Position numbers and translations under genes: made by a program | Assembly: GCA_015520565.1 (NCBI GenBank) | Contig: WAPW01000099.1 | Span: 1 to 32,226, forward strand | Length of the DNA: 32,226 nucleotides | Direction of reading: 5' to 3' | Source: Candidatus Aciduliprofundum sp. | GTDB taxonomy: Archaea; Thermoplasmatota; Thermoplasmata; Thermoplasmatales; Aciduliprofundaceae | Shown here: in pieces, positions 3,769-25,087 of the stretch | Numbering within the stretch: the stretch's first letter is position 1 | Layout of the letters: each line of letters starts with the position of its first letter | Notes under the pieces: generated by a model | The model's database searches: none | What the model saw: only the letters and a program-made list of their open reading frames with translations | What the model was told of the DNA's origin: nothing

Positions 3769-3798
3769 GTCATATGATTGTCTGACAATAGTCATATG
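3769..3798. promoter_or_regulatory. Palindrome ATTGTCTGACAAT flanked by direct repeats of GTCATATG
   Basis: GTCATATG at 3769-3776 and 3791-3798 (22-bp period) flank the palindrome ATTGTCTGACAAT (3777-3789), just downstream of a TATA-like CTTTAAATA. Confidence 0.55.
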
Positions 3799-3807
3799 GT
3801 GGTAAAA

Positions 3808-4746
3808 ATGGGAAAATATCCTTATAGCTTTGGTGAAGCCGTAATATATTCTGGCGTTCTTCTCATTACTCTGTGGTGGATCCCTGTTCTTGGGCCTATA
3901 ATAATAGGATACATTACGGGGAGGAAATCTGGGGGACCTTTAAAAGGCCTGTTTGCCATGGCAATTCCCATCCTTCTTTATACTCTCTTTATAAACTCCA
4001 TACACTGTGGAGCTCTAAATATTCCTCCATCAATAATGTCCTATATACAAGGAAACTCAATACCTAACTTATTAGGCATATCATCTCTGCCTTTTATGAA
4101 CTATATTAACACAACGATTAATTTAGCTTCAAATGTGGGAATCCAAATAGAGAGCCATCTTTATTATGTGCCATCCTCATTTTTCATTATGCTTGCCTTT
4201 GCTTTTATCGGTGGAGCTGTTAGCAGGCAGGTAATTCTTGAAAGGGGCCTCTATAAGGAAACTATGGAAGAGAAAGAAGTTAAAAAGAGAGCACCAAAAC
4301 CGTATAACCCTAATCCTCCAGAAGAGAGTAATGAGGATGACGAGCCAAAAAGAGCTCCAATACCTCAAGCTCAATACCCTCAGCAAATTTATGCACAACC
4401 ACAACCCTATCCCCAGCCAGTGTATGTGCAACAAGTTCCTCAATATCCCACATATCCCCAATATCCACAAGCTCAGTATAATCCTTATCAAGCCCCACCT
4501 CAAGCTCCACCAATGCAGCAAATCCCGCAGGGCTACTATGCCCAAAGCATGCCTAGAGAAGTAGAGAAGCAAAATAAAGCAGTGCATGCTACTCCTCAAA
4601 AATCAAAGAGAAAAAGCAAGAGGAAGAAAATAAAGGAATTCAAGGAGGAAGATAGCAAATTCGTTGTGCATCCAATGGACACAAAGAAAGAAATTGCAAT
4701 AAATAAAAAAAGGATAAATAACGAGAATTCAATAGCATTTCTATGA
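3808..4746 (+). CDS. Predicted membrane protein with Pro/Gln/Tyr-rich and basic C-terminal region
   Basis: ORF 3778-4746; ATG at 3808 preferred (GGTGGT RBS). Hydrophobic N-terminal segments (VIYSGVLLITLWWIPVLGPIIIGYITG; GLFAMAIPILLYTLFI; FFIMLAFAFIGGAVS), then PIPQAQYPQQIYAQPQPYPQPVYVQQVPQYPTYPQYPQ and KSKRKSKRKKIKE. Confidence 0.75.
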   Translation: MGKYPYSFGEAVIYSGVLLITLWWIPVLGPIIIGYITGRKSGGPLKGLFAMAIPILLYTLFINSIHCGALNIPPSIMSYIQGNSIPNLLGISSLPFMNYINTTINLASNVGIQIESHLYYVPSSFFIMLAFAFIGGAVSRQVILERGLYKETMEEKEVKKRAPKPYNPNPPEESNEDDEPKRAPIPQAQYPQQIYAQPQPYPQPVYVQQVPQYPTYPQYPQAQYNPYQAPPQAPPMQQIPQGYYAQSMPREVEKQNKAVHATPQKSKRKSKRKKIKEFKEEDSKFVVHPMDTKKEIAINKKRINNENSIAFL

Positions 4747-4886
4747 TATTTGCAGGAATAGACCTTGCAGCTAGGGAGAAAAACATAACTGGGATTGCAA
4801 TAATTAATGGGGGAGGAATAGAGATTATTGGATGTTATATTATTTTACACTGCACATCCATCTTCCCACGGGGGAGGTCATAAGAA
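4743..4886 (+). pseudogene. Truncated N-terminus resembling a DUF429 / RNase H-fold family protein
   Basis: ATG overlapping the previous stop (ATGA); reads MIFAGIDLAAREKNITGIAIINGGGIEIIGC then an unrelated tail and stop after 47 codons. The GIDLA...TGIAI start is typical of DUF429-like proteins. Confidence 0.5.
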
Positions 4887-5224
4887 GTGAAGTGCAAATT
4901 TTTATGGATATTGCAAACTTAATTAACGCTGTTGATTCTCTTCTTTTATTTAAAAAAGGAGCAGTTCTTTTTGACAGCGGCGGTAAATATTCAATAGGGT
5001 TTGATATAGTGGATAATTTTTATGTTGAAATCTGGGTTGAAAATGGAGAAAGAAAATCGTTTAAAATTGAGAATAGGGTATTATTAAGAAATATGCGTGA
5101 CCTTTTGATTAAAATTAGAGATATATGCAACATGGTGGAAAAACCTTCAGAGAAATTATTGGAAAGTTTGCGATTGATAAACATTTATCTGCACGTAATG
5201 AGCTTGAGGAGGGAATTATCATGA
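4832..5224 (+). CDS. Hypothetical protein, 130 aa
   Basis: Open frame MLYYFTLHIHLPTGEVIRSEVQIFMDIANLINAVDSLLLFKKGAVLF..., protein-like composition; no family recognised. Confidence 0.5.
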   Translation: MLYYFTLHIHLPTGEVIRSEVQIFMDIANLINAVDSLLLFKKGAVLFDSGGKYSIGFDIVDNFYVEIWVENGERKSFKIENRVLLRNMRDLLIKIRDICNMVEKPSEKLLESLRLINIYLHVMSLRRELS

Positions 5225-8112: not shown

Positions 8113-8973
8113 GTGCTAGCTGTAATCATATTGACTCTTGCTATAATAATCGCATTTACGCTAATTTCCTTCAAGAAGAATCCAGTGTTTTACCTCTCCT
8201 TAGCATTCGTTTTAGTTTATTTGATTGAGCTTTACTCTTACTACCAAGGTTCAATTTTGCAATTCTATGAGCTCTTTGCTTGCAAATCAAATATTTTTGA
8301 TATGGGCATATTCACAGCCATCTATGTGCATAGTTTGAACCCTGCTCATATATTTTTCAATATTCTAATATTCTTCTTGGTTGGCTTACCCTTTGCCCAG
8401 AAGGTTGGTAATTTTAAATTCACAAGTATATTTCTCATTTCCGGACTCCTTGCAAACATTGGCTATTCCCTATTTCTTAAAATGAGTGGCATAAACTCGT
8501 TTCTCATAGGTGCATCTGGAGCTATATTTGGAATAATGGGTGCATTCTTAATTCTATATCCAAACGAGGAAATAACAATGTTCCTAGGCCCTATTTTGAT
8601 GCCCCGTGTGAAGGTTAAGTATGCAGTCCTTGCTTTTATGGCAGTTGAATTCTTTGCAACTCTATTTTGGGTCAACGATAATGTGGCACATGGTGCGCAT
8701 GTAATAGGTGCCGTGAGCGGTGCCTTATTTGCCTATGCTTTGAGAAATTATAGAGTAGAAAGAATTAAAATGAAAGGCCTTAACTATGAGCTCTTGGATG
8801 AACTCGCAGATACTCCAGAACTTAAAAGAATTGCAAATAAGATAAAGGGAGAGAAAGACGAAATAATACGCAGCTCTTGGCTCCTTGAATTTTTTAGAAA
8901 GAAGAATGGGGATGCCGAATTTGAAGGAAAGTATGTGAAGAGTGGAGGTAAGAGGTATAGGGTTTATAGGTGA
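8113..8973 (+). CDS. Rhomboid family intramembrane serine protease
   Basis: Multiple TM segments; GASGAIFGIMGAFLIL (catalytic GxSG) and HGAHVIGAVSGALFAY (catalytic His). GTG start. Confidence 0.9.
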   Translation: MLAVIILTLAIIIAFTLISFKKNPVFYLSLAFVLVYLIELYSYYQGSILQFYELFACKSNIFDMGIFTAIYVHSLNPAHIFFNILIFFLVGLPFAQKVGNFKFTSIFLISGLLANIGYSLFLKMSGINSFLIGASGAIFGIMGAFLILYPNEEITMFLGPILMPRVKVKYAVLAFMAVEFFATLFWVNDNVAHGAHVIGAVSGALFAYALRNYRVERIKMKGLNYELLDELADTPELKRIANKIKGEKDEIIRSSWLLEFFRKKNGDAEFEGKYVKSGGKRYRVYR

Positions 8974-8978
8974 TTCCC

Positions 8979-9959
8979 ATGCTTATTGATGGCTCTTATG
9001 GAGAGGGAGGCGGTCAAATTCTACGCACTTCCATAGCCCTATCAGCCATATTGGGAGAGGATGTGGAGATAATCAATATCAGGGCAAAGAGGAGAAATCC
9101 AGGATTGGCAGCGCAACATCTCTGGGGCATAAAGCTCGCTGGAATGATGAGCAACGCCAAAATTTCAGGCCTCAAGGTTGGTTCACAGTGTGTAGTTTTC
9201 TCTCCAAATAAGATAAAGGGGGGAGAGTACAGAATTGATATAGGAACGGCAGGAAGTATAACTTTGCTTCTTCAAACCGCTATTCCCATTGCTCTATTTG
9301 CCGATGATAAAGTAATCTTAAAAATCACTGGAGGCACTGATGTATCTTGGTCACCTCCCATTGATTACTATCGCCATGTTCTTTCATATTTTCTGCGAAG
9401 AATGGGAGCAAAGATGGACATAGAAGTGATTGAGAGGGGCTACTACCCAGAGGGAGGAGGAAAGGTTAGAGTGGAAATTGAGCCAGCAGAGCTTGAGGGA
9501 TTAAAGATTCTTGAGAGGGGAGAGATGAAGGGCAGGAGAGCTTACATAAATATGAGGGGCTTGCCAATGCATATTGTAGAAAGGATGAAGAAAAATCTAA
9601 GAGGGTATGAGCTCTTTGAAGATGTTGGCAATGCGAGTAGGAGTAGGGGATGTGGATTGGTTATTTTAGAAGAATATTCCCACACCATCCTTGCTGGAGA
9701 TTCTCTATGCAAAAAAGGACTTCCCGCTGAGAAAGTTGCTAGAATTGCCATTGAAAAATTAGATAAGGAAAGAAATTCAAATTCTACAGTTGATGTAAAT
9801 ATGGGAGACCATCTAATCACGTTTGGCTCATTGGCAAATGGCACAACGGCTTATTATGTTAGAGAGTTAACAGAGCACATAAAAACCAATGCTTGGGTAG
9901 TGCAAAAATTTGGTAAGAGAGTAAAGATAGAAGGGAATAAAATAGAGATTTATGCATAG
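8979..9959 (+). CDS. rtcA: RNA 3'-terminal phosphate cyclase
   Basis: MLIDGSYGEGGGQILRTSIALSAILGEDVEIINIRAKRRNPGLAAQHL and IDIGTAGSITLLLQTAIP; ORF track start 8970, ATG 8979 preferred. Confidence 0.95.
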   Translation: MLIDGSYGEGGGQILRTSIALSAILGEDVEIINIRAKRRNPGLAAQHLWGIKLAGMMSNAKISGLKVGSQCVVFSPNKIKGGEYRIDIGTAGSITLLLQTAIPIALFADDKVILKITGGTDVSWSPPIDYYRHVLSYFLRRMGAKMDIEVIERGYYPEGGGKVRVEIEPAELEGLKILERGEMKGRRAYINMRGLPMHIVERMKKNLRGYELFEDVGNASRSRGCGLVILEEYSHTILAGDSLCKKGLPAEKVARIAIEKLDKERNSNSTVDVNMGDHLITFGSLANGTTAYYVRELTEHIKTNAWVVQKFGKRVKIEGNKIEIYA

Positions 9960-10735
9960 ATATAATCTTTTGGAACCTTTTTAACTTTAGCAGCTTGCTC
10001 TCTAATCTGCGCTAAATTCTTTTCTATTTTTTCAGCCTCTTCGTACAATGGCTTAGGATCTATCTTTATCCCTTGCATAATTTCGTTTAATACTTCAACT
10101 ATCTTTGCCGCAGCTCTTGCGTCCGGATAATCAGGATGCGCCTCTGCAAGAAGAGCTATAACATCAGTGTCTCTCTTTTTCCCTTCTGTTAAAAGCACAC
10201 CTGTAACCCCTGTTATAACTCCTTCTCCAAATTCTAAAATTCCTTGAGGAATTTTCTTTTTAGCGTAATCTGTGCTTGTTACAGCATAAACATTTACCTC
10301 CTCTTTCTTCTCTTCTTGAATTATGCCCTCTGGAGTTATCACTGTTGATATCTTCTGCTCATCTGCCCAGTCAAGCATAAGAGTACCCATGGATTTGAGC
10401 AAGGAAGTAGGTATTTGGAACTCAGATACAAATACAGATATCTTTAGATTCTCCTTTACCTTTCCACCATATATCCTAACAGGACTTAAAGGCACACCAT
10501 TCCTAACAAGTGCCACAGCTGGGAAATATGGGCTATCAACTATTGCTATTTGCTCTAGATTCAACGATTCAATTATGTAATTTGCAACAATTGAGCTCAC
10601 GAGCCCCACAGATGGAAAGCCATCTATGACGATTCCATCACGAAGGTCAATCTTCTTTAGTTCATAAATTTCCAAATCCATAGGGGTGTATATAATTTTA
10701 GGCGTAAAAATTTTTCCTAATCGCAACATTAACAT
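9950..10735 (-). CDS. PAC2 family protein (proteasome assembly chaperone-like)
   Basis: GFPSVGLVSSIVANYIIESLNLEQIAIVDSPYFPAVALVRNG; ITGVTGVLLTEGKKRDTDVIALLAEAHPDYPDARAAAKIVEVLN. True start may be ATG at 10681. Confidence 0.88.
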   Translation of the reverse strand: MLMLRLGKIFTPKIIYTPMDLEIYELKKIDLRDGIVIDGFPSVGLVSSIVANYIIESLNLEQIAIVDSPYFPAVALVRNGVPLSPVRIYGGKVKENLKISVFVSEFQIPTSLLKSMGTLMLDWADEQKISTVITPEGIIQEEKKEEVNVYAVTSTDYAKKKIPQGILEFGEGVITGVTGVLLTEGKKRDTDVIALLAEAHPDYPDARAAAKIVEVLNEIMQGIKIDPKPLYEEAEKIEKNLAQIREQAAKVKKVPKDYIYA

Positions 10736-10759
10736 ACTCCTAGAGCATAGGGTTATTAC

Positions 10760-12364
10760 ATGAAGTACATTGTTGTCACAGGAGGAGTGATTTCAGGTCT
10801 TGGAAAGGGTATAACAACAAGCTCTCTGGGAAAGATTTTGCAGGTTCGTGGTTTGAAAGTAACGGCGATAAAAATTGACCCTTACCTCAATTACGATGCA
10901 GGCACTATGAATCCTTACCAGCATGGCGAGGTTTTTGTGCTTGATGATGGAGGCGAGGTAGACCTTGATTTGGGCAATTATGAGCGCTTCTTGGATGAGA
11001 ATTTGACATTTGATCATAATATCACAACGGGCAAGGTTTATAGAACGGTTATAGAGAGGGAGAGAAAGGGTGAGTATTTGGGCAAAACGGTGCAAATCAT
11101 TCCCCACATAACTGAAGAGATAAAGAGGAGAATTAAAAAAGTTGCAATAGAGAGCAATGCAGATATCATTTTAATTGAAGTCGGAGGTACAGTTGGGGAT
11201 ATAGAGAGCATGCCATTCTTAGAAGCCATGAGGCAACTTCGTATGGAGGAGGGTGAAAGAAATGTTTTCTTTGTGCATACAACCCTTGTGCCAACAGTTG
11301 AAGTTGTGGGGGAGCAAAAGACAAAGCCCACGCAACACAGTGTTAAAGAGCTTCGCTCTCTTGGTATCCAGCCAGATATGATTGTTGGACGCTCTAAAGA
11401 GCCCTTGAGAGAGGAAACAAAGAGAAAAATCTCTCTTTTCTGCGATGTGCCCTATGAGGCGGTTATTAGCGCTCCTGATGCAAAGTCCATATACGAAGTA
11501 CCCTTAATTTTTGAAGAGCAAGGAGTTGGGGAGTATATTCTTGGTAAGATGCAGATAAGGGGCGAAGCTCCAAGATGGAGAGAATGGAAGAGGTATCTTT
11601 CTAAATTATACAACCCAAAAAATGAGGTAACCATTGGAATTGTTGGCAAGTATGTACATCTCAAAGATTCTTACATAAGTCATAGGGAGGCATTTACGCA
11701 TGTATCCTCTGCCCTCCAAACGAGAGTGAATTTGAAATGGATTGATAGTGAAGATTTAGAGGATGAGGGATTAGATCTCCTAAAGGGTGTGGATGGTATA
11801 TTAATCCCCGGGGGTTTTGGTCCAAGAGGTACTGAAGGTAAAATAATGGCTGCAAGGTATGCTCGGGAAAACAATATTCCCTTCTTGGGCGTGTGCTTTG
11901 GATTTCAGCTTGCCGTGGTTGAATTTGCTCGTCATGTTTTGGGTTATGAGGATGCCAATAGCACTGAACTGCATCCTAGCACTGATGCACCCGTCATTGA
12001 TCTCCTTCCAGAGCAAAGAAGTGTAAAAAATCTGGGGGGCACGATGCGTTTAGGAACTCAGAAAATAATTATTGAAAAGGGTAGTATGGCGCATAAAATA
12101 TACGGGAAACTGCAAATTTTTGAGAGGCACAGGCATAGGTATGAGGTGAATCCAAAATATATAGAGGAGTTTGAGAAGAATGGATTACACTTCTCAGGCA
12201 AGGATGAGAGTGGCACGAGGATGGAGATATTTGAATTGAAAGAGCATCCATTCTATATGGGCTCTCAGTTCCATCCAGAATTCAAATCAAGGCCATTAAA
12301 GCCATCCCCATTGCATCTTGCATTAGTTAGGGCAGCATTGAAGTACAAGGAAAATCATAAATAA
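10760..12364 (+). CDS. pyrG: CTP synthase
   Basis: [68 protein letters not shown], glutamine amidotransferase [15 protein letters not shown]. Confidence 0.99.
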
Positions 12365-13482
12365 AGGGAATAAACCTCCATTAATTTTTTATAAGAATTT
12401 TCCCAAGTGTATTTTTCTATGGAACCCCTTGCATTCTTCTTCAATTTCTCATACAAATTTTCATCATTTATAAGCATTTCTAATTTCTCCCTTAACTCAT
12501 TTACATCTCTGGGCTCAGCTAGCAATCCATTGTATCCATCTCTCACTATTTCCGGTATCGCCGTTATCCTGAATGATACCACGGGCTTCCCAGCAGCTAA
12601 GGCCTCTGCTATGCTCATACCAAACCCCTCAGATATGCTCGGAAGACAAAAGATGTCAAAGGAATCATAGTAAAGGGGCACTTCTTCATCTCTTATTTTT
12701 CCTGCAAAAATGACCCTATCTTCCATTCTATATTTTTTTACTAAATTTTTCAGCATGTCCTCTATCCCCAAAATCCCAGATGTTTTTGGATTTGGATTTG
12801 GGCCTACCAGCACTATATATACATCTTTCATCTCTTTTGCTGCTTCAATAAGATATTGGGGGCCTTTTCCTGTGCTCAATCTTCCCACGAATCCTATAAT
12901 TTTCTTATCCTTCGGGATTTTGTATTTCTCCCTTAAATAATTTCCATCGCTCTTTCCAAATTTTTCAATATCCACGCCGGGATGCACCACATGTATCCTT
13001 TCCTCTGGCAAGCCCAATTCCACTAGCCTGCTTTTTGTGTATTTGCTAGGGGTGATGTATGCAGTGTAAGGTAATTTGATTATGAAGCCCTCAAATCTCT
13101 CATACGTTTTTGAGCCTTCCCAGCCGGAGTATTCCTCGTACTTGCCTATATAAACATCGTGGATGTGTCTTAAAATAGGAATGTTTGAATTGATTTTGTG
13201 AAAATAAGAAAGTACGGGAGCTGCTATGTAAGAATGAGTATGTACCAAATTCGGCTTAATTTTTTTTATTTTTGATATTATTGATGTACCCATTTCCGCC
13301 TTTGAGAGACGATAATAGGGTACGCCGTCAATTTCTTCAAAATCCTTTGTATTGGGTAATTTTGAGGTAATAACATAACTTTTGTGCCCATCCCATCGTT
13401 GCATAGTGGAATATTTATGTACCACATACTCAACACCACCAATGTGTGGCAATGCAACATCGCTGATATGCACAAATTTCAT
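12355..13482 (-). CDS. Glycosyltransferase family 4 (GT-B)
   Basis: [43 protein letters not shown] (EX7E), N-terminal [11 protein letters not shown]. Confidence 0.93.
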
Positions 13483-13550: not shown

Positions 13551-13559
13551 ATTTATATA
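13551..13559 (+). promoter_or_regulatory. TATA-box-like element upstream of the 1441-aa surface protein
   Basis: ATTTATATA at 13551-13559, spaced so that the predicted transcript would start near 13580. Confidence 0.5.
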
Positions 13560-13641: not shown

Positions 13642-16600
13642 ATGAACGAAAGAAGTATGAAAAAAATATTGTTAGTGACAATAGTGTTAGCAGCAGTATT
13701 ACTCAGTGGCTTTTCAGTGATGTCTGGGAGTGCTGCAGCGGCAGCACCCAAACCTTCTAGTAATAACGGCACACTAGTGGTTGCATTTCAGAATGACATT
13801 TCAAACTTGAACTATTTTGACCCGACGACTAATACAGTGTGGAAGTCAGATGCCATTGGTTGGAGTTTTGAGACCTTGTATAGTTATACACCTGACTTGA
13901 TACCATACCCAAACTTGGCAAAGAGTGCAACAGTTACTAGCCCTGATGGCTTGAATATTACAGTGGAATTGAGGCACAATGTGCATTTCCAAGATGGAGT
14001 ACCTATGACTGCTAAGGATGTGGTGTTTAGCTACCAGACATTGTATTTTGACTCAATGTTTAAGACAAGCCTTGAGTGTCTATACTGGCCAACAGCAAAG
14101 TGGCCTCGTTGGGATGGAAATGGTACATCCCACATAGGTGTTGTAGCCACTGGCACATATACAGTTGTATTCCACTTGCATGAGCCGTATCCTCTGTTCT
14201 TCCAAGTGACTCTCAACAATCCTATAATTCCAGAGCATATATGGGCTCCTAACCACATAAAGTCCGCTGGTACTGGAGATAGTAATGATATGCAGCTGGA
14301 TACTTCTTGGAGTGCCCCTGCAGCAACCATTGGTACTGGTGCATTCAAGTTTGTTGAGTGGAAGCCAGGTAACTATGTGAAGATAGAAGCATACAAGAAT
14401 TACTGGGGTAAGGGATTATATACCACTTGGAGAGGCAAGCAGTGGCCTTGGTATCCTCAGTATGTTAGGACAATAATATTCAAGATTTACAATACATTGG
14501 ATACAGCGGTTCTTGCTTTGAAGAGAGGAGAAGTTCAGTACATTGACTGGTCAATACCCGCAGGATATTACAACCAGTTAAAGACAGACCCACATATTGG
14601 CTCTATTATTGTTAATGATCAGGGATTCTTCTACCTAGCGTTCAATATGAGAAAAGAACCTATGAAAGACCTTGCATTTAGGCAAGCTGTTGCTTATTCA
14701 ATTGATAAGGATTACATAGTTACAACCCTGCTGCAGGGTTATGGTACAAAGGGTACCGTTCCTATATCAATCACATCTGGTGCTTATGTTAATACCTCGG
14801 CAATTCCACCACCATTTGATTTGAATGCTGCTCAGAAGGTATTGGATAACGCAGGATACAAGGTTGGCTCAGATGGATGGAGACACGCACCTGATGGAAG
14901 TCCAATTAAAGAAACAATTCTCACACCTCCTAAGAGTTATGATCCTGTTAGGGCTGAAGCAGGTATAATGATACAGGCAAACTTGCAGAAGATAAAGCTC
15001 AACATACAGAGCATACCTACCGACTTTGATACAATAGTTGCAAGGGCATTTGTGCAGGTTAACTTTGATATGTACATTCTTGGATGGCTTGTAGGTGCAT
15101 TTCCTGAGACATACTTGGAGGACTTCTTTGCAAGCTGGATGGCTGCTCCTATAGGTGATAATACACCTGGCTATAGTAATCCTACAGTTGACAAGCTTCT
15201 CAAGGAGATTAGGACAGATATGAACACTCAGGATAGAATTAACAAAATTAAGGAGATTGAAGGTATATTAGTGCACGATTTGCCTTACGATGTGCTTTAT
15301 TACAGAAAGAACATAATGGCATTTAGAAAAGATATGTGGCAGGGATGGGTAGCAGCCTATGGTACTATTTGGAATGGCTTCTCACTTGGAGTTCTCCATC
15401 CGCCTATAGCCCCACCAACTCCTCCTGGGCCTGGTGGCGGTGGCCATCATCCAGGTCCTGTGACTAATGTTACTGGAAAGGCATTAACCGGCGTAGTTCC
15501 ACATCTCTATGTGCCAAATGTTGCATATGCAGGTCAGTCAATTAACGGTGCGTTCTATGTAACTGATGCAAATGGTTTGCCCATAAAGGATGTTAAAGTT
15601 GCTATCTATGCATCCAATGGAGTTTGGGCAAATGGTACCACTGGTAGCTCTGGTGGATTTGCATTTAGCGTGCCTTTGAAGTTCCAGATGTATACTAAGC
15701 CAGTTACGCTCACATATTCCTTCTCGGTGAATATGAATGGACATAGCTACAATTACACTGGAGTTAAAGATATCAATGTGTATCTTCCAAAGAATGTTGC
15801 AAGGCTTAAACTAAGCATTGATAAGCCAATACTCACTCCTGGAGCAAGTGCCACTGTGACTGCCAAAGTAACTGATTTGTATGCGCATCCACTTGCAGGT
15901 GTGAATGTCACCTTGATGACAGAAGAAACATCCGGTTCTATAACACCTAGTTATGGTATAACAAATAGTGATGGTATTGTCACATTCCAGTACACGGCAC
16001 CAACAACGATGACAAATATCAACTTCGTAGATATTGTGAAAGCAAAGATAAATGTGAATAATACAATCCTTACAAATCTACAGACCAGCACGCTATTTAT
16101 ACCTATACAAACTCAGGGAAGCAGCTGGTACAAAGTGCTCATAGAGCATGTTAGCAGCTATGGAATAACAGCAGGTCAGAATTCTCAGATAACTGTTAAA
16201 GTTGTGGATATTCATGGCAATCCTGTAGCAAATCATAAGGTATATGTAGCCGCTTATTACTCCAATGCAACTGATCCTAACTGGTATGGCGAGCAGCTTA
16301 TACCAGCATGGGGAGTGCAGTGGGATACAACTCAGAAGACAACTGATAGCAATGGTGAGGCAACATTCACTCTAACTGCAACCCAGAATGCAGATATTCC
16401 TGTGATAGTTAAGGCCTACACTCAGGATACATATATGGCCTACGATACTGTGCAGATTTATGTGGGTAATGAAACAGGATTTGACCCATACATTGGTGCA
16501 TGGACTGGTTTGTATGCAATGGATATGCATCTAAATAAGATAACTGCTGGCAATGGACAGCAGGTACAGGTAACAATGACCGTTTATAATGCCCAGAATG

Positions 16601-17967
16601 GCACACCTCTTGCCAATGCACTGGTCTTCATGGCAGTGTTTGGTACAAGCTATGGAATGGGTGCTGATTGGGCAAATAACGCAGGTACATATGTATGGTG
16701 GGCTGCTCAGAGTGTTATAGGAGGATACACTGATAGTAATGGTCAGTTCTCATACACTTTGAACACCAGTGCTCTAAGAGCAGATGCACCTATCTATGTG
16801 AGCGGTTGGATGGATGCTTATGGATATGGTAGTAATGCAGTATGGACAGGCCTTGGATTTAACTTCCCGTATCTCTTCGGCGTAAAGGATGGATTTATCC
16901 TCCAGAGGGCACCTATAATGGGCATATCCAAGGTAACAGTGAATGAGTTCTACTTCAGTGATACTATAAATAGCATGATTATGAGCGTAAAGGTTGTTGA
17001 TGTGAATGGACCTCTCTCTGGAGTAACCGTATCTGCTAAATGGAGCCTTGGTACATACAAGAACAGCACAACTGCAACCACAAATGCTCAGGGTATTGCT
17101 CAATTCAACATAACAATTCAGCCAACTATTGGAGATAGCATAGTGGCTGTCTCTCTAAGCTTATCCTCGCCGAATCATGCAATGAATCTCAACTATGAGT
17201 ATGATATACCATTCTTGACTGGCACGGCACAGCTCTCCAAGACAGAAGTATTCAGCTGTCTCAAAGTGATGACTGGCAGCCCAACCACCTATGTGGATAT
17301 GGTACCATATATGGGCACAGCAACAATCAAGGTACAACTAGTTGGTGGATTGGAAGGCAAGCCAATTGCAAATGAAGAGGTAACCCTTTCAACACCTGCT
17401 GGAAGTGTTTCTCAGGCCACAACTGAAACCAATGCAAATGGTGTAGCTGTGTTCAACTACACAGCACCGAACATACTGCTACCTGCACACTATGTATTTG
17501 AGGTGTATTCCAAGAGCGGAGCCGTGTATTACTTCGGTGTTGAAGTAGGCGGCAAGTACAATAATACACTAGAAATAAGCAACTACATAAACGAGCTCAA
17601 CCAGAAGATTGCAAATCAGAATGCACAGATTCAGGATCTACAGACCAAGTATAACAACTTGAATAACCAGTACAACTCCCTGCAGGATAACTACACATCC
17701 TTGCAGAAGGATTACAATAATGTGAAGAACCAGAAGAACTCTGCAGTTACAATGGAGTATGTGTGGCTCTCATTGTTCATTGTGTTCCTGATAATATCCA
17801 TAGTGATGTACTTCGTTGGCAGAAAGAGCGGTGCTAAGAAGGCAGCTGTACCAGAGGAAGAGAGCACAGAGGAAGAGGAAACAGAAGAAGAGGAAACCAC
17901 CGAAGAAGAGAGCTCTGAGGAAGAGATAACCGAAGAGAACGAAGAGGAAGAAAACAAAGAGGAGTAA
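13642..17967 (+). CDS. Cell-surface protein: family 5 (peptide-type) ABC solute-binding domain + Ig-like repeats + coiled coil + C-terminal TM + acidic tail
   Basis: Signal peptide MKKILLVTIVLAAVLLSGFSVMSGSAAAAA; SBP_bac_5-like LRHNVHFQDGVPMTAKDVVFSYQTL, GTGAFKFVEWKPGNYVKIEAYKNYWG, FRQAVAYSIDKDYIV; PPTPPGPGGGGHHPGP linker; repeated Ig-like units; TM VWLSLFIVFLIISIVMYFVG; Glu-rich C-terminus. GGAGG RBS before ATG 13642. Confidence 0.93.
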   Translation: MNERSMKKILLVTIVLAAVLLSGFSVMSGSAAAAAPKPSSNNGTLVVAFQNDISNLNYFDPTTNTVWKSDAIGWSFETLYSYTPDLIPYPNLAKSATVTSPDGLNITVELRHNVHFQDGVPMTAKDVVFSYQTLYFDSMFKTSLECLYWPTAKWPRWDGNGTSHIGVVATGTYTVVFHLHEPYPLFFQVTLNNPIIPEHIWAPNHIKSAGTGDSNDMQLDTSWSAPAATIGTGAFKFVEWKPGNYVKIEAYKNYWGKGLYTTWRGKQWPWYPQYVRTIIFKIYNTLDTAVLALKRGEVQYIDWSIPAGYYNQLKTDPHIGSIIVNDQGFFYLAFNMRKEPMKDLAFRQAVAYSIDKDYIVTTLLQGYGTKGTVPISITSGAYVNTSAIPPPFDLNAAQKVLDNAGYKVGSDGWRHAPDGSPIKETILTPPKSYDPVRAEAGIMIQANLQKIKLNIQSIPTDFDTIVARAFVQVNFDMYILGWLVGAFPETYLEDFFASWMAAPIGDNTPGYSNPTVDKLLKEIRTDMNTQDRINKIKEIEGILVHDLPYDVLYYRKNIMAFRKDMWQGWVAAYGTIWNGFSLGVLHPPIAPPTPPGPGGGGHHPGPVTNVTGKALTGVVPHLYVPNVAYAGQSINGAFYVTDANGLPIKDVKVAIYASNGVWANGTTGSSGGFAFSVPLKFQMYTKPVTLTYSFSVNMNGHSYNYTGVKDINVYLPKNVARLKLSIDKPILTPGASATVTAKVTDLYAHPLAGVNVTLMTEETSGSITPSYGITNSDGIVTFQYTAPTTMTNINFVDIVKAKINVNNTILTNLQTSTLFIPIQTQGSSWYKVLIEHVSSYGITAGQNSQITVKVVDIHGNPVANHKVYVAAYYSNATDPNWYGEQLIPAWGVQWDTTQKTTDSNGEATFTLTATQNADIPVIVKAYTQDTYMAYDTVQIYVGNETGFDPYIGAWTGLYAMDMHLNKITAGNGQQVQVTMTVYNAQNGTPLANALVFMAVFGTSYGMGADWANNAGTYVWWAAQSVIGGYTDSNGQFSYTLNTSALRADAPIYVSGWMDAYGYGSNAVWTGLGFNFPYLFGVKDGFILQRAPIMGISKVTVNEFYFSDTINSMIMSVKVVDVNGPLSGVTVSAKWSLGTYKNSTTATTNAQGIAQFNITIQPTIGDSIVAVSLSLSSPNHAMNLNYEYDIPFLTGTAQLSKTEVFSCLKVMTGSPTTYVDMVPYMGTATIKVQLVGGLEGKPIANEEVTLSTPAGSVSQATTETNANGVAVFNYTAPNILLPAHYVFEVYSKSGAVYYFGVEVGGKYNNTLEISNYINELNQKIANQNAQIQDLQTKYNNLNNQYNSLQDNYTSLQKDYNNVKNQKNSAVTMEYVWLSLFIVFLIISIVMYFVGRKSGAKKAAVPEEESTEEEETEEEETTEEESSEEEITEENEEEENKEE
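17584..17740 (+). other. Coiled-coil segment of the surface protein
   Basis: YINELNQKIANQNAQIQDLQTKYNNLNNQYNSLQDNYTSLQKDYNNVKNQ, heptad-like Leu/Ile spacing with N/Q-rich positions. Confidence 0.75.
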
Positions 17968-17994
17968 TCCTCTTTTAACTTTTTATTTTATTTT
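17956..17994 (+). terminator. Hairpin overlapping the stop codon followed by a T-rich tract
   Basis: AAAGAGGA(17956-17963)-GTAA-TCCTCTTT(17968-17975), perfect 8-bp stem with the TAA stop in the loop, then TTAACTTTTTATTTTATTT. Confidence 0.65.
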
Positions 17995-19590
17995 TGTTAG
18001 ATTTAGCTCCATTGCAATTGTTGGATATCCAAGCTCAAAATTCTCTAGGACCTCTGGATGTATTTCTCCAAAGAACCCTATCTCCTCGCCTTTATAAATT
18101 CCTGCAACTCTACCTGAAATGAAGCTATTGTGCTCTATTTCCTTTATTTCATATTTCCCAATGCCTAAATCTCTCAGTATGGCTTCTGCATAGGACTTAC
18201 TTAGTGTGAAGCTCGCTGAAGAATCTATGTACAAGAACGCAAGATGCTCTTCTTTCTCTTCTTGCATCACATATCCAATTTCAAATATTTTCTGTGGCAG
18301 TTCTCTATGCTTATTCTTTCGTAGAATTTCCATCAGGGAAGGAATGAGCCAGCTGCGCAGAGTGGTTCCATCTTCCGTTATTGGATTTTCAATCTCTACA
18401 AAGTTCTCTCTTGATAATCGCATAGCATTGTATTGAATTTTTGGAGATGTTATTGTTAAGGTTGTAACCTCTGAGAATCCTAGGCCAAGCATTATTTCCC
18501 TCACCATATTTTCAAAATCTTTTATCGTGCTTCCTATCTTCTCTTTCGTTGGCAAAGAGGGCTCAAAATTCTGAAAAGTCAAACCCTTGGCAATGTCTTC
18601 AATTATATCCACAGGGTGAAGAATATCCATTCTGTAGGGGGGAATTGTGACTTTTATTCTTTCATCCTTTATTTCAGCATCAAAGCGCATTCTTTGCAAG
18701 GAATCCAAAATCTCTCCATCGCTCAATTTCTTACCTAAAATCTTTTCAATATAATCTTTTTCAACTTCAATTTTTCCATACTCTAATTCTGGGGTTCTAA
18801 TAATACTATCAGGATATTTTATTTCCACTCTTTCAATTGAAACACCTCTATCTGCAAAGGAGCAAGCTAGGATGTTGAGCACAGAGTTCAGGGTATTCAA
18901 ATCTGTGCCTGTTATATCAATGAATATATTTTTCGTTTCATTAGTTATTTGAGTTAAATTTCCGTTGATTATTGGAGGAAATGATAGAACATTTCCTTGC
19001 GAGTCAAGTATAATTGGATATTCTTTCAATCCTTTGAGGATATGTGCATACTCTATACCTTTAGGATGCTCTTTTAGAATTTCCTCTAAGCTCATCTCAT
19101 CTTGAAATCCCAAAGGGGCAAATTTAAAATCTTTATCCTTTGGAACATAGTAAAAAGGTGGCTTGACTTTATCAAAATCATGCAGTCCTATAGCCAATTT
19201 TTTTCTTTTTCTACCCACCGTTATATGCAATTTCTCTTGAAAATCCATCATACTCTTTATCATCAAATCGTCCACTTCTATCCCTTTAATTACAGCCCCC
19301 ACGATGTAAGGCCTTATATTTTTCATTCTTTCATCCACAAATATTTCCACATTTCCATCTCTTGCTCCATATTTTGGAGCTCCTCTATCAATGCCCCAGA
19401 ATCCCCTTATGGCTCTAACCACACCCTCAATTGTGTAGAGATCAGGTCTATCTGGAAAGAATTCTACACGAAGCTCCTTTTCATCTTCATCTTTAAAATC
19501 TGCTCCGAGCATATTCACATCTTTTATGAATTTATCTTCGTCAATGTTGAATCTCCTAAGCTCTTCTCTCTGCAATCTTATAACAGGCAT
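17983..19590 (-). CDS. pheT: Phenylalanyl-tRNA synthetase beta subunit
   Basis: MPVIRLQREELRRFN...RVEFFPDRPDLYTIEGVVRAIRGFWGI; YRMDILHPVDIIEDIAKGLTFQNFEP; ISGRVAGIYKGEEIGFFGEIHPEVLENF. Confidence 0.96.
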   Translation of the reverse strand: MPVIRLQREELRRFNIDEDKFIKDVNMLGADFKDEDEKELRVEFFPDRPDLYTIEGVVRAIRGFWGIDRGAPKYGARDGNVEIFVDERMKNIRPYIVGAVIKGIEVDDLMIKSMMDFQEKLHITVGRKRKKLAIGLHDFDKVKPPFYYVPKDKDFKFAPLGFQDEMSLEEILKEHPKGIEYAHILKGLKEYPIILDSQGNVLSFPPIINGNLTQITNETKNIFIDITGTDLNTLNSVLNILACSFADRGVSIERVEIKYPDSIIRTPELEYGKIEVEKDYIEKILGKKLSDGEILDSLQRMRFDAEIKDERIKVTIPPYRMDILHPVDIIEDIAKGLTFQNFEPSLPTKEKIGSTIKDFENMVREIMLGLGFSEVTTLTITSPKIQYNAMRLSRENFVEIENPITEDGTTLRSWLIPSLMEILRKNKHRELPQKIFEIGYVMQEEKEEHLAFLYIDSSASFTLSKSYAEAILRDLGIGKYEIKEIEHNSFISGRVAGIYKGEEIGFFGEIHPEVLENFELGYPTIAMELNLTKIK

Positions 19591-19622
19591 AAGTACCAAA
19601 AAGATGTATTGTAAAAAAAGTT

Positions 19623-22203: not shown

Positions 22204-22599
22204 ATGAGCTATGAAATTCCTAAAGAGGATGAAATCAAGGAAATCTTGCTTAAAATTATGAAGAGAAGGGGCATAGTGGAATCCCAAGCTGAGTTGCATA
22301 GGGAGGTTATGAAACATCTTAAGAGGAGAAATAAAGAGTACAAGTTGAGTGGTAAAAGAATGAGAATAATTGCCCTTGCTACAGGCAAAATTAAGATAGA
22401 GATAAGGTACAAACTCACAGATAGAATTGTGGAAGAGATGGACAAATGCCCAGTTTGCGGAGGAAATATGGTAAGAATAGAGAATTCAACCCTTGATGGA
22501 GAGAATGTTGTTATAGGGTTCAAATGCACAAAGTGCCCTTACTGGACTGGGAAGAAGCTTAGAGTGCCCATAAGGTACATATTTCGCTACAAATCTTAA
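22204..22599 (+). CDS. Conserved archaeal-type protein with C-terminal zinc ribbon
   Basis: CPVCGGNMVRIENSTLDGENVVIGFKCTKCPYW, two CxxC knuckles; helical N-terminus. Confidence 0.75.
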   Translation: MSYEIPKEDEIKEILLKIMKRRGIVESQAELHREVMKHLKRRNKEYKLSGKRMRIIALATGKIKIEIRYKLTDRIVEEMDKCPVCGGNMVRIENSTLDGENVVIGFKCTKCPYWTGKKLRVPIRYIFRYKS

Positions 22600-24502: not shown

Positions 24503-25087
24503 TTAATATTCTAATTTCATCTGATGCTGCTCTTTATTAACAAAACCTTTTAGATTATAACCCTCCACGACTAATTCGCTTAGTATTTGCACATAAGCAT
24601 TATCGTAATTCTTGGTGGGAATGTAGGCAGAATTATTACGGGGCACATTGAATCCTTGCGATAGTAAAATCTCCAGAGCTTTTTTTCTCTCCTCTCCAAC
24701 TATCTTCTCCCTATATTGGGGAATGCCAACATTGCATTTTTCAAGCTCTCTCATAAATATAGGCCTATTGAAAAGTTTGTAAAGAGTGTAAAGGGTTATA
24801 TCAGGGGCCTCTTCCTCATCTATATCCCTTGCCTTCTTCCCAATTATTTCGTATATTGTCTTTTTTCTATTTTGCTGCACACTGTAAACCTTTGCAGGCT
24901 TAATGAATCTTTCTTTTAGGATTCCCATATCTGCCATGGCTTGCAAGTATCCTGTTAAAATAAGACGATGCTTCTTCACCCCCTTTTTCGCAAGCTCCTT
25001 GGATAAATCATTTATGGATCTACCATCCTTGCCCAAGATTTCGATTATCAGGTCCTTCAATGACTTGCCCACAATCTCCTTCTCCAT
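24503..25087 (-). CDS. Hypothetical protein with N-terminal winged-helix-like region
   Basis: KDLIIEILGKDGRSINDLSKELAKKGVKKHRLILTGYLQAMADMGILKERFIKPAKVYSV resembles a winged helix; no precise family recognised. Confidence 0.6.
   Translation of the reverse strand: MEKEIVGKSLKDLIIEILGKDGRSINDLSKELAKKGVKKHRLILTGYLQAMADMGILKERFIKPAKVYSVQQNRKKTIYEIIGKKARDIDEEEAPDITLYTLYKLFNRPIFMRELEKCNVGIPQYREKIVGEERKKALEILLSQGFNVPRNNSAYIPTKNYDNAYVQILSELVVEGYNLKGFVNKEQHQMKLEY

Follow-up and report, generated by a model that had tools for sequence, protein, structure and literature searches.

A stalked, AppA-like solute-binding receptor in Candidatus Aciduliprofundum and its probable partner, a tall Opp/Dpp-type ABC importer encoded on another contig

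Here we ask which transporter, if any, is served by a long surface protein of Candidatus Aciduliprofundum sp., whose gene lies on a contig of 32,226 nucleotides (WAPW01000099.1 of assembly GCA_015520565.1; this whole stretch is called the window hereafter). The protein joins a solute-binding protein (SBP) domain to a row of immunoglobulin (Ig)-like domains and a membrane anchor, and no importer permease or ATPase genes were found in the window. The first-pass annotation, made from the sequence of the window, had likewise seen none beside the gene and had suggested an orphan receptor. We find this suggestion to be mistaken, as the same genome encodes, on another contig, an importer operon devoid of a binding protein that turns out to be the conserved partner of receptors of this kind. 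Taking the genomic evidence together, the protein very probably serves as a substrate receptor, tethered to the membrane, for a tall ATP-binding cassette (ABC) importer of the Opp/Dpp type, with its partners on that other contig.

The source genome (G000; 1.51 Mb in 103 contigs) contains three SBP_bac_5 proteins and three pairs of oligo_HPY ATPases, which are those of the oligopeptide type. Two of these pairs are on contig C13, in two complete operons that each have their own SBP (530 and 571 amino acids) and an OppC permease of ordinary size (289 and 305 amino acids). The third pair is on contig C6, outside the window, where oppB, oppC, oppD and oppF are all present and the binding-protein gene is absent from the operon, so that the gene set expected for an Opp/Dpp-type importer of the receptor exists but is unlinked to it. 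Both permeases of C6 are enlarged. OppC has 822 amino acids, with the OppC_N domain at residues 18-64 and the permease core at 636-821 in Pfam, leaving an insert of approximately 520 residues between the first and second transmembrane helices; OppB (491 amino acids) has an insert of about 150-180 residues. The loop between these two helices lies outside the membrane in the established topology of Opp/Dpp permeases, and the inserts of both C6 subunits are predicted to be extracellular.

Examination of gene order in related genomes links receptor and permease directly. In four of them (G008, G010, G004 and G027) a gene for an SBP-Ig-transmembrane protein is followed on the same strand, and nearly abutting, by oppB, an extended oppC, oppD and oppF; the receptor homologues have 1558-1685 amino acids and the extended OppC proteins 752-769. 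The same receptor-oppB-oppC-oppD-oppF order is found in more distant Thermoplasmata (loci L132-L145 and L157); the receptors there range from 900 to 2202 amino acids and carry a terminal transmembrane segment wherever the reading frame is complete. An SBP homologue lies within 15 kb at 35 of 55 extended-OppC loci, and in 34 of those 35 it is on the same strand; this is a lower bound, because no more than a few candidates were scored in each genome and short contigs are frequent. The two parts are separated in the Aciduliprofundum lineage, and the separation is real and not an artefact of assembly, since in two genomes that consist of a single contig the receptor gene lies 84 kb (G002) and 42 kb (G003) from the permease operon. 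The comparison of gene orders thus points to fission of the receptor from the importer genes in this lineage, and the gene of the window would look like an orphan because the ancestral operon was split. Two further genomes (G048 and G067) were discarded as split cases, as their genes stop at contig ends and the gaps are probably assembly breaks.

Phylogenetic analysis of both proteins agrees with this pairing. In the SBP tree the window receptor groups with its orthologues, and the sister of this clade comprises G058a, G074, G048, G067, G162, G093 and G123; the compact systems fall outside both. The OppC of C6 falls with the same groups as the window SBP (G058a, G074, G162 and G093), inside clades in which the genes are linked in operons, although support is weak at the deeper nodes of the OppC tree and the placement of G123 and G021 is less firm. 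Distances in the two families are strongly correlated (mirror r = 0.833 for 35 matched pairs; none of 5000 permutations was as high, the maximum being 0.361). Shared species history accounts for part of this correlation, but not for the separation from compact systems that occur in the same genome. Sizes also go together: among the measured pairs, tall systems always combine an SBP of at least 866 amino acids with an OppC of at least 695, and compact systems an SBP of 530-613 with an OppC of 281-305. Receptor stalk and permease insert therefore occur together, and both are missing from the compact importers encoded in the source genome. OppB exceeds 450 amino acids beside five of eight receptors shorter than 1000 amino acids versus one of 15 longer ones. 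Stalk length might be traded against the height of the permease, although this comparison is only exploratory, as the loci are related. The OppB proteins of L133, L140, L145 and L157 (556-663 amino acids) have large inserts and mostly stand next to receptors below 1000 amino acids.

The domain composition of the receptor was confirmed in full (Table 1). Pfam, AlphaFold2, Foldseek, hydropathy and composition bear out the signal peptide, SBP_bac_5 domain, about six Ig-like domains, coiled coil, transmembrane helix and Glu-rich tail described in the first-pass annotation, and the six Ig motifs it had quoted are located at residues 640, 743, 854, 981, 1118 and 1233. The SBP_bac_5 match (E = 1.1e-74) covers profile positions 2-360 of 368. 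Five stretches match Big_1 (E = 1.6e-25), and MG4, CarboxypepD_reg, Invasin_D3 and bMG3 are also over their cut-offs. Where Ig folds had been expected (residues ~600-1320), an AlphaFold2 model of residues 575-1441 built from 11 sequences shows one beta-sandwich domain after another, with predicted local distance difference test (pLDDT) values of 80-95 in most blocks of the Ig region; a single long helix (1309-1389) spans the coiled coil and the transmembrane segment, and the linker is disordered (model residues 1-39, pLDDT <50). The best Foldseek matches are Ig or macroglobulin arrays (bacterial alpha-2-macroglobulin, complement C5 and titin), which together with Pfam and the model place the repeated domains in the Big_1/macroglobulin group. 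Since domain chains differ in how they bend, the overall template-modelling scores (TM-scores) of the array are low, and Foldseek therefore backs the domain fold and not the overall shape. Hydropathy analysis identifies only two strongly hydrophobic segments, the signal peptide (4-34) and the C-terminal one (1366-1398). The tail keeps its composition among homologues but not its sequence. Another surface protein of the same genome (L053:2-2329, contig C20; CARDB, CUB and Big_13 domains) likewise ends in an Asn/Gln-rich coiled coil, a transmembrane helix and a Glu-rich tail, and the three elements look like an anchor module common to surface proteins of the genus. The Ig array is not significantly enriched in N-glycosylation sequons (12 versus 9.2 expected).

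Full-length homologues are present in three other genomes of the genus (78-82% identity); identity is 81% on an Aciduliprofundum sp. contig and 58% on a contig of a DHVE2 group archaeon. Matches from distant receptors reach two to four domains into the Ig array before they fade (most end at query residues 830-1060), so the membrane-proximal part varies most.

As for what is transported, Aciduliprofundum is a thermoacidophile that ferments peptides, and the nearest solved relative of the N-terminal domain is AppA of B. subtilis (1xoc, E = 2.4e-33), reportedly crystallised with a nonapeptide. In OppA and DppA the Asp of the motif 'GW..D..DP' holds the amino group of the peptide. The compact paralogues have this Asp; the receptor lacks it and carries GWLVGAFPETYL ('GW....FPETY'), like AppA (GWSLSTFPDQY). 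Because the Asp is absent, the OppA/DppA mode of substrate recognition cannot be transferred to the receptor, and we class the domain only as AppA-like SBP_bac_5. Judged from its sequence family, its ligand is most likely an oligopeptide.

The insert of the C6 OppC has no match in Pfam. In an AlphaFold2 model (10 sequences, mean pLDDT 71.5) it is nearly all-beta, with many blocks at 80-94. Foldseek matches the core best to OppABCD and DppABCDF chains solved by cryo-electron microscopy (cryo-EM), and for the insert, after permeases, it returns mostly beta-propeller proteins (for example Ski8, EED and sortilin) at TM-scores below 0.5. In an OppC-type permease of 1071 amino acids (L140:3820-7032, minus strand) the insert matches kelch propeller models (E = 2.4e-35). 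On the basis of these propeller and kelch matches the modelled C6 insert is probably a beta-propeller.

Whether the receptor serves the C6 importer and nothing else requires taking other candidates into account. The same genome encodes on contig C60 a second extended permease pair (L104:8249-11682, minus strand), an OppB-like protein of 531 amino acids with an EF-hand-like stretch and an OppC-like protein of 614, both with large predicted extracellular inserts. The receptor could serve this pair, alone or besides C6, by borrowing the C6 ATPases: the outer domains of the pair are large, neither an SBP nor an ATPase gene accompanies it, an EAA-type coupling loop is recognisable in its OppC-like subunit, pairs of this type were encountered solely within the family of the receptor, mostly in genomes with a detached receptor, and in G006 (3 kb) and G009 they lie a few kb from an Ig-SBP gene with other genes between. 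We consider it unlikely, however, as the core of the OppC-like subunit forms a very long branch and falls outside the clade that shares operons with the receptor in other genomes, and none among the genomes examined has such a pair in one operon with an Ig-SBP. A role without any transporter, as an orphan chemosensory or scavenging receptor, agrees with the absence of importer genes from the window, but the SBP-less cognate operon in the same genome, the operon linkage in relatives and the matching trees make it very improbable; the permease and ATPase searches of the genome and the synteny in relatives led us to reject it.

It is also conceivable that the protein is mainly structural, an S-layer or adhesion protein or one projected through the S-layer, with its binding domain secondary. 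Ig arrays with a coiled coil and a transmembrane anchor are typical of surface stalks, and the same anchor module recurs in another surface protein of the genome. Yet the SBP domain is conserved in full and relatives co-encode a complete importer, which leaves this explanation with a small probability. The first-pass annotation had seen in the array a stalk that carries the binding domain through or above the S-layer; the domain composition supports the stalk, but not the S-layer as the whole reason for it, because long receptors and extended OppC proteins are also found in family f6, which is apparently wall-less (mostly S-layer-deficient if f6 corresponds to Thermoplasmatales sensu stricto). 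One f6 genome has a 1327-amino-acid receptor and a 716-amino-acid OppC in one gene cluster. Within the Thermoplasmatales, cell-wall-deficient members are clearly more numerous than those bearing an S-layer (PMC5155288). Projection across an S-layer is thus weakened as a sole explanation, and the apparently wall-less relatives argue against its being necessary for the receptor; the stalk may determine how far the receptor reaches, or serve as an arm for docking.

Several points weigh against the pairing of the window receptor with the C6 importer, or against parts of it: the two are unlinked in the source genome, their interaction is deduced from genomic comparison, the substrate is assigned from family membership, the propeller assignment depends on a ten-sequence model and on low TM-scores to propellers, and the C60 pair is a possible alternative or additional partner. 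The pairing of receptor and transporter is nonetheless well supported by the genomic evidence.

Placing these results into a model, the AppA-like domain would capture oligopeptides at the tip of a flexible arm made of the Ig domains and the coiled coil, perhaps 25-30 nm long at full extension. It would then swing back via the Gly/Pro linker and dock on a platform formed by the outer domains of OppC and OppB, a docking that we infer, and release the substrate into the channel, with OppD and OppF powering uptake. A more far-reaching proposal, which we advance tentatively and with a little less than even confidence, is that these systems form a structural subclass of their own among type I ABC importers. 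Substrate would be handed on outside the membrane, with an Ig-stalk receptor of variable length docking on an OppC beta-propeller tower (with an extra OppB domain), and the partners would have co-evolved in height across Thermoplasmata, S-layer-free cells included.

The importers of the Opp/Dpp/App type (AppA of B. subtilis, DppABCDF of E. coli, OppABCD of M. tuberculosis) share with this system an SBP_bac_5 receptor, two BPD_transp_1 permeases and two oligo_HPY ATPases, and their AppA shares with the receptor the motif 'GW....FP(D/E).Y'. Their receptors are free or lipid-anchored, whereas the one described here has an Ig array, a coiled coil and a C-terminal transmembrane anchor, its OppC has about 500 extra outside residues (OppB in some cases too), and its gene is unlinked in Aciduliprofundum. 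The P2 loop of MalF in the maltose importer is also a domain added to a permease on the extracytoplasmic side, where it contacts the binding protein, but it belongs to another permease family, is one small domain in a different loop and works with a soluble receptor. Membrane-anchored archaeal SBPs such as those of the Sulfolobus bindosome are likewise held at the cell surface; they bind sugars, have class III (pilin) signal peptides and use a dedicated assembly system (PMC2910488), unlike this receptor with its ordinary-looking signal peptide, C-terminal transmembrane helix and Ig stalk.

The first-pass annotation had allowed that the architecture might be a catalogued, common archaeal family. 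It is common in Thermoplasmata, but no description of the extended OppC, of a propeller-bearing ABC permease or of this receptor was found in the open-access literature, and the tall variant, recurring across the class, is apparently undescribed. The solved Opp/Dpp importers matched here have compact permeases and stalkless receptors; both seem to have been enlarged together throughout one archaeal class. Tall importers are hence a natural test of the role of outer permease domains in receptor docking, and bear on how archaea that live on peptides take up food across an S-layer or in its absence. The pairing also gives a partner to a receptor that annotation would call orphan and a receptor to an operon that lacks one.

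Table 1. Features of the receptor gene and protein (window positions; residues of the protein)
Feature	Residues	Positions	Strand	Basis or remark
TATA-box-like element (archaeal), TTTATATA		13552..13559	+	read off sequence
Stalked solute-binding receptor gene, complete	1441 plus stop	13642..17967	+	single unbroken open reading frame
Signal peptide, boundary approximate	1-35	13642..13746	+	hydrophobic segment 4-34
SBP_bac_5 solute-binding domain	36-585	13747..15396	+	Pfam match 88-495; AppA 1xoc match
Flexible Gly/Pro/His linker	586-613	15397..15480	+	sequence; composition varies among orthologues; AlphaFold2 pLDDT <50
About six Ig/macroglobulin-like beta-sandwich domains	614-1304	15481..17553	+	Pfam Big_1 (five), MG4, bMG3; AlphaFold2; Foldseek
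Ig-domain limits, approximate	614-719, 720-819, 820-944, 945-1080, 1081-1177, 1178-1304
Asn/Gln-rich coiled coil	1309-1365	17566..17736	+	one long AlphaFold2 helix; 40% Asn plus Gln
Transmembrane anchor	1366-1393	17737..17820	+	hydropathy; kept in homologues
Glu-rich tail, predicted cytoplasmic	1394-1441	17821..17964	+	25 of 48 residues Glu

Upstream of the receptor gene, the TATA-like box and a GGGAGG immediately ahead of the ATG suggest a promoter of its own. The gene is probably transcribed alone, since, in addition to these signals, it is flanked by a divergent glycosyltransferase gene (12355-13482, minus strand) and a convergent pheT (17983-19599, minus strand). Elsewhere in the window, the open reading frames at 3778-4746, 4832-5224, 22204-22599 and 24503-25087 have no Pfam match. 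The region ahead of the receptor (8113-13482) encodes a rhomboid protease, an RNA 3'-phosphate cyclase, a PAC2 protein, CTP synthase and the glycosyltransferase (GT4); its gene order is apparently the same in G006 (L087) and is probably conserved housekeeping synteny.

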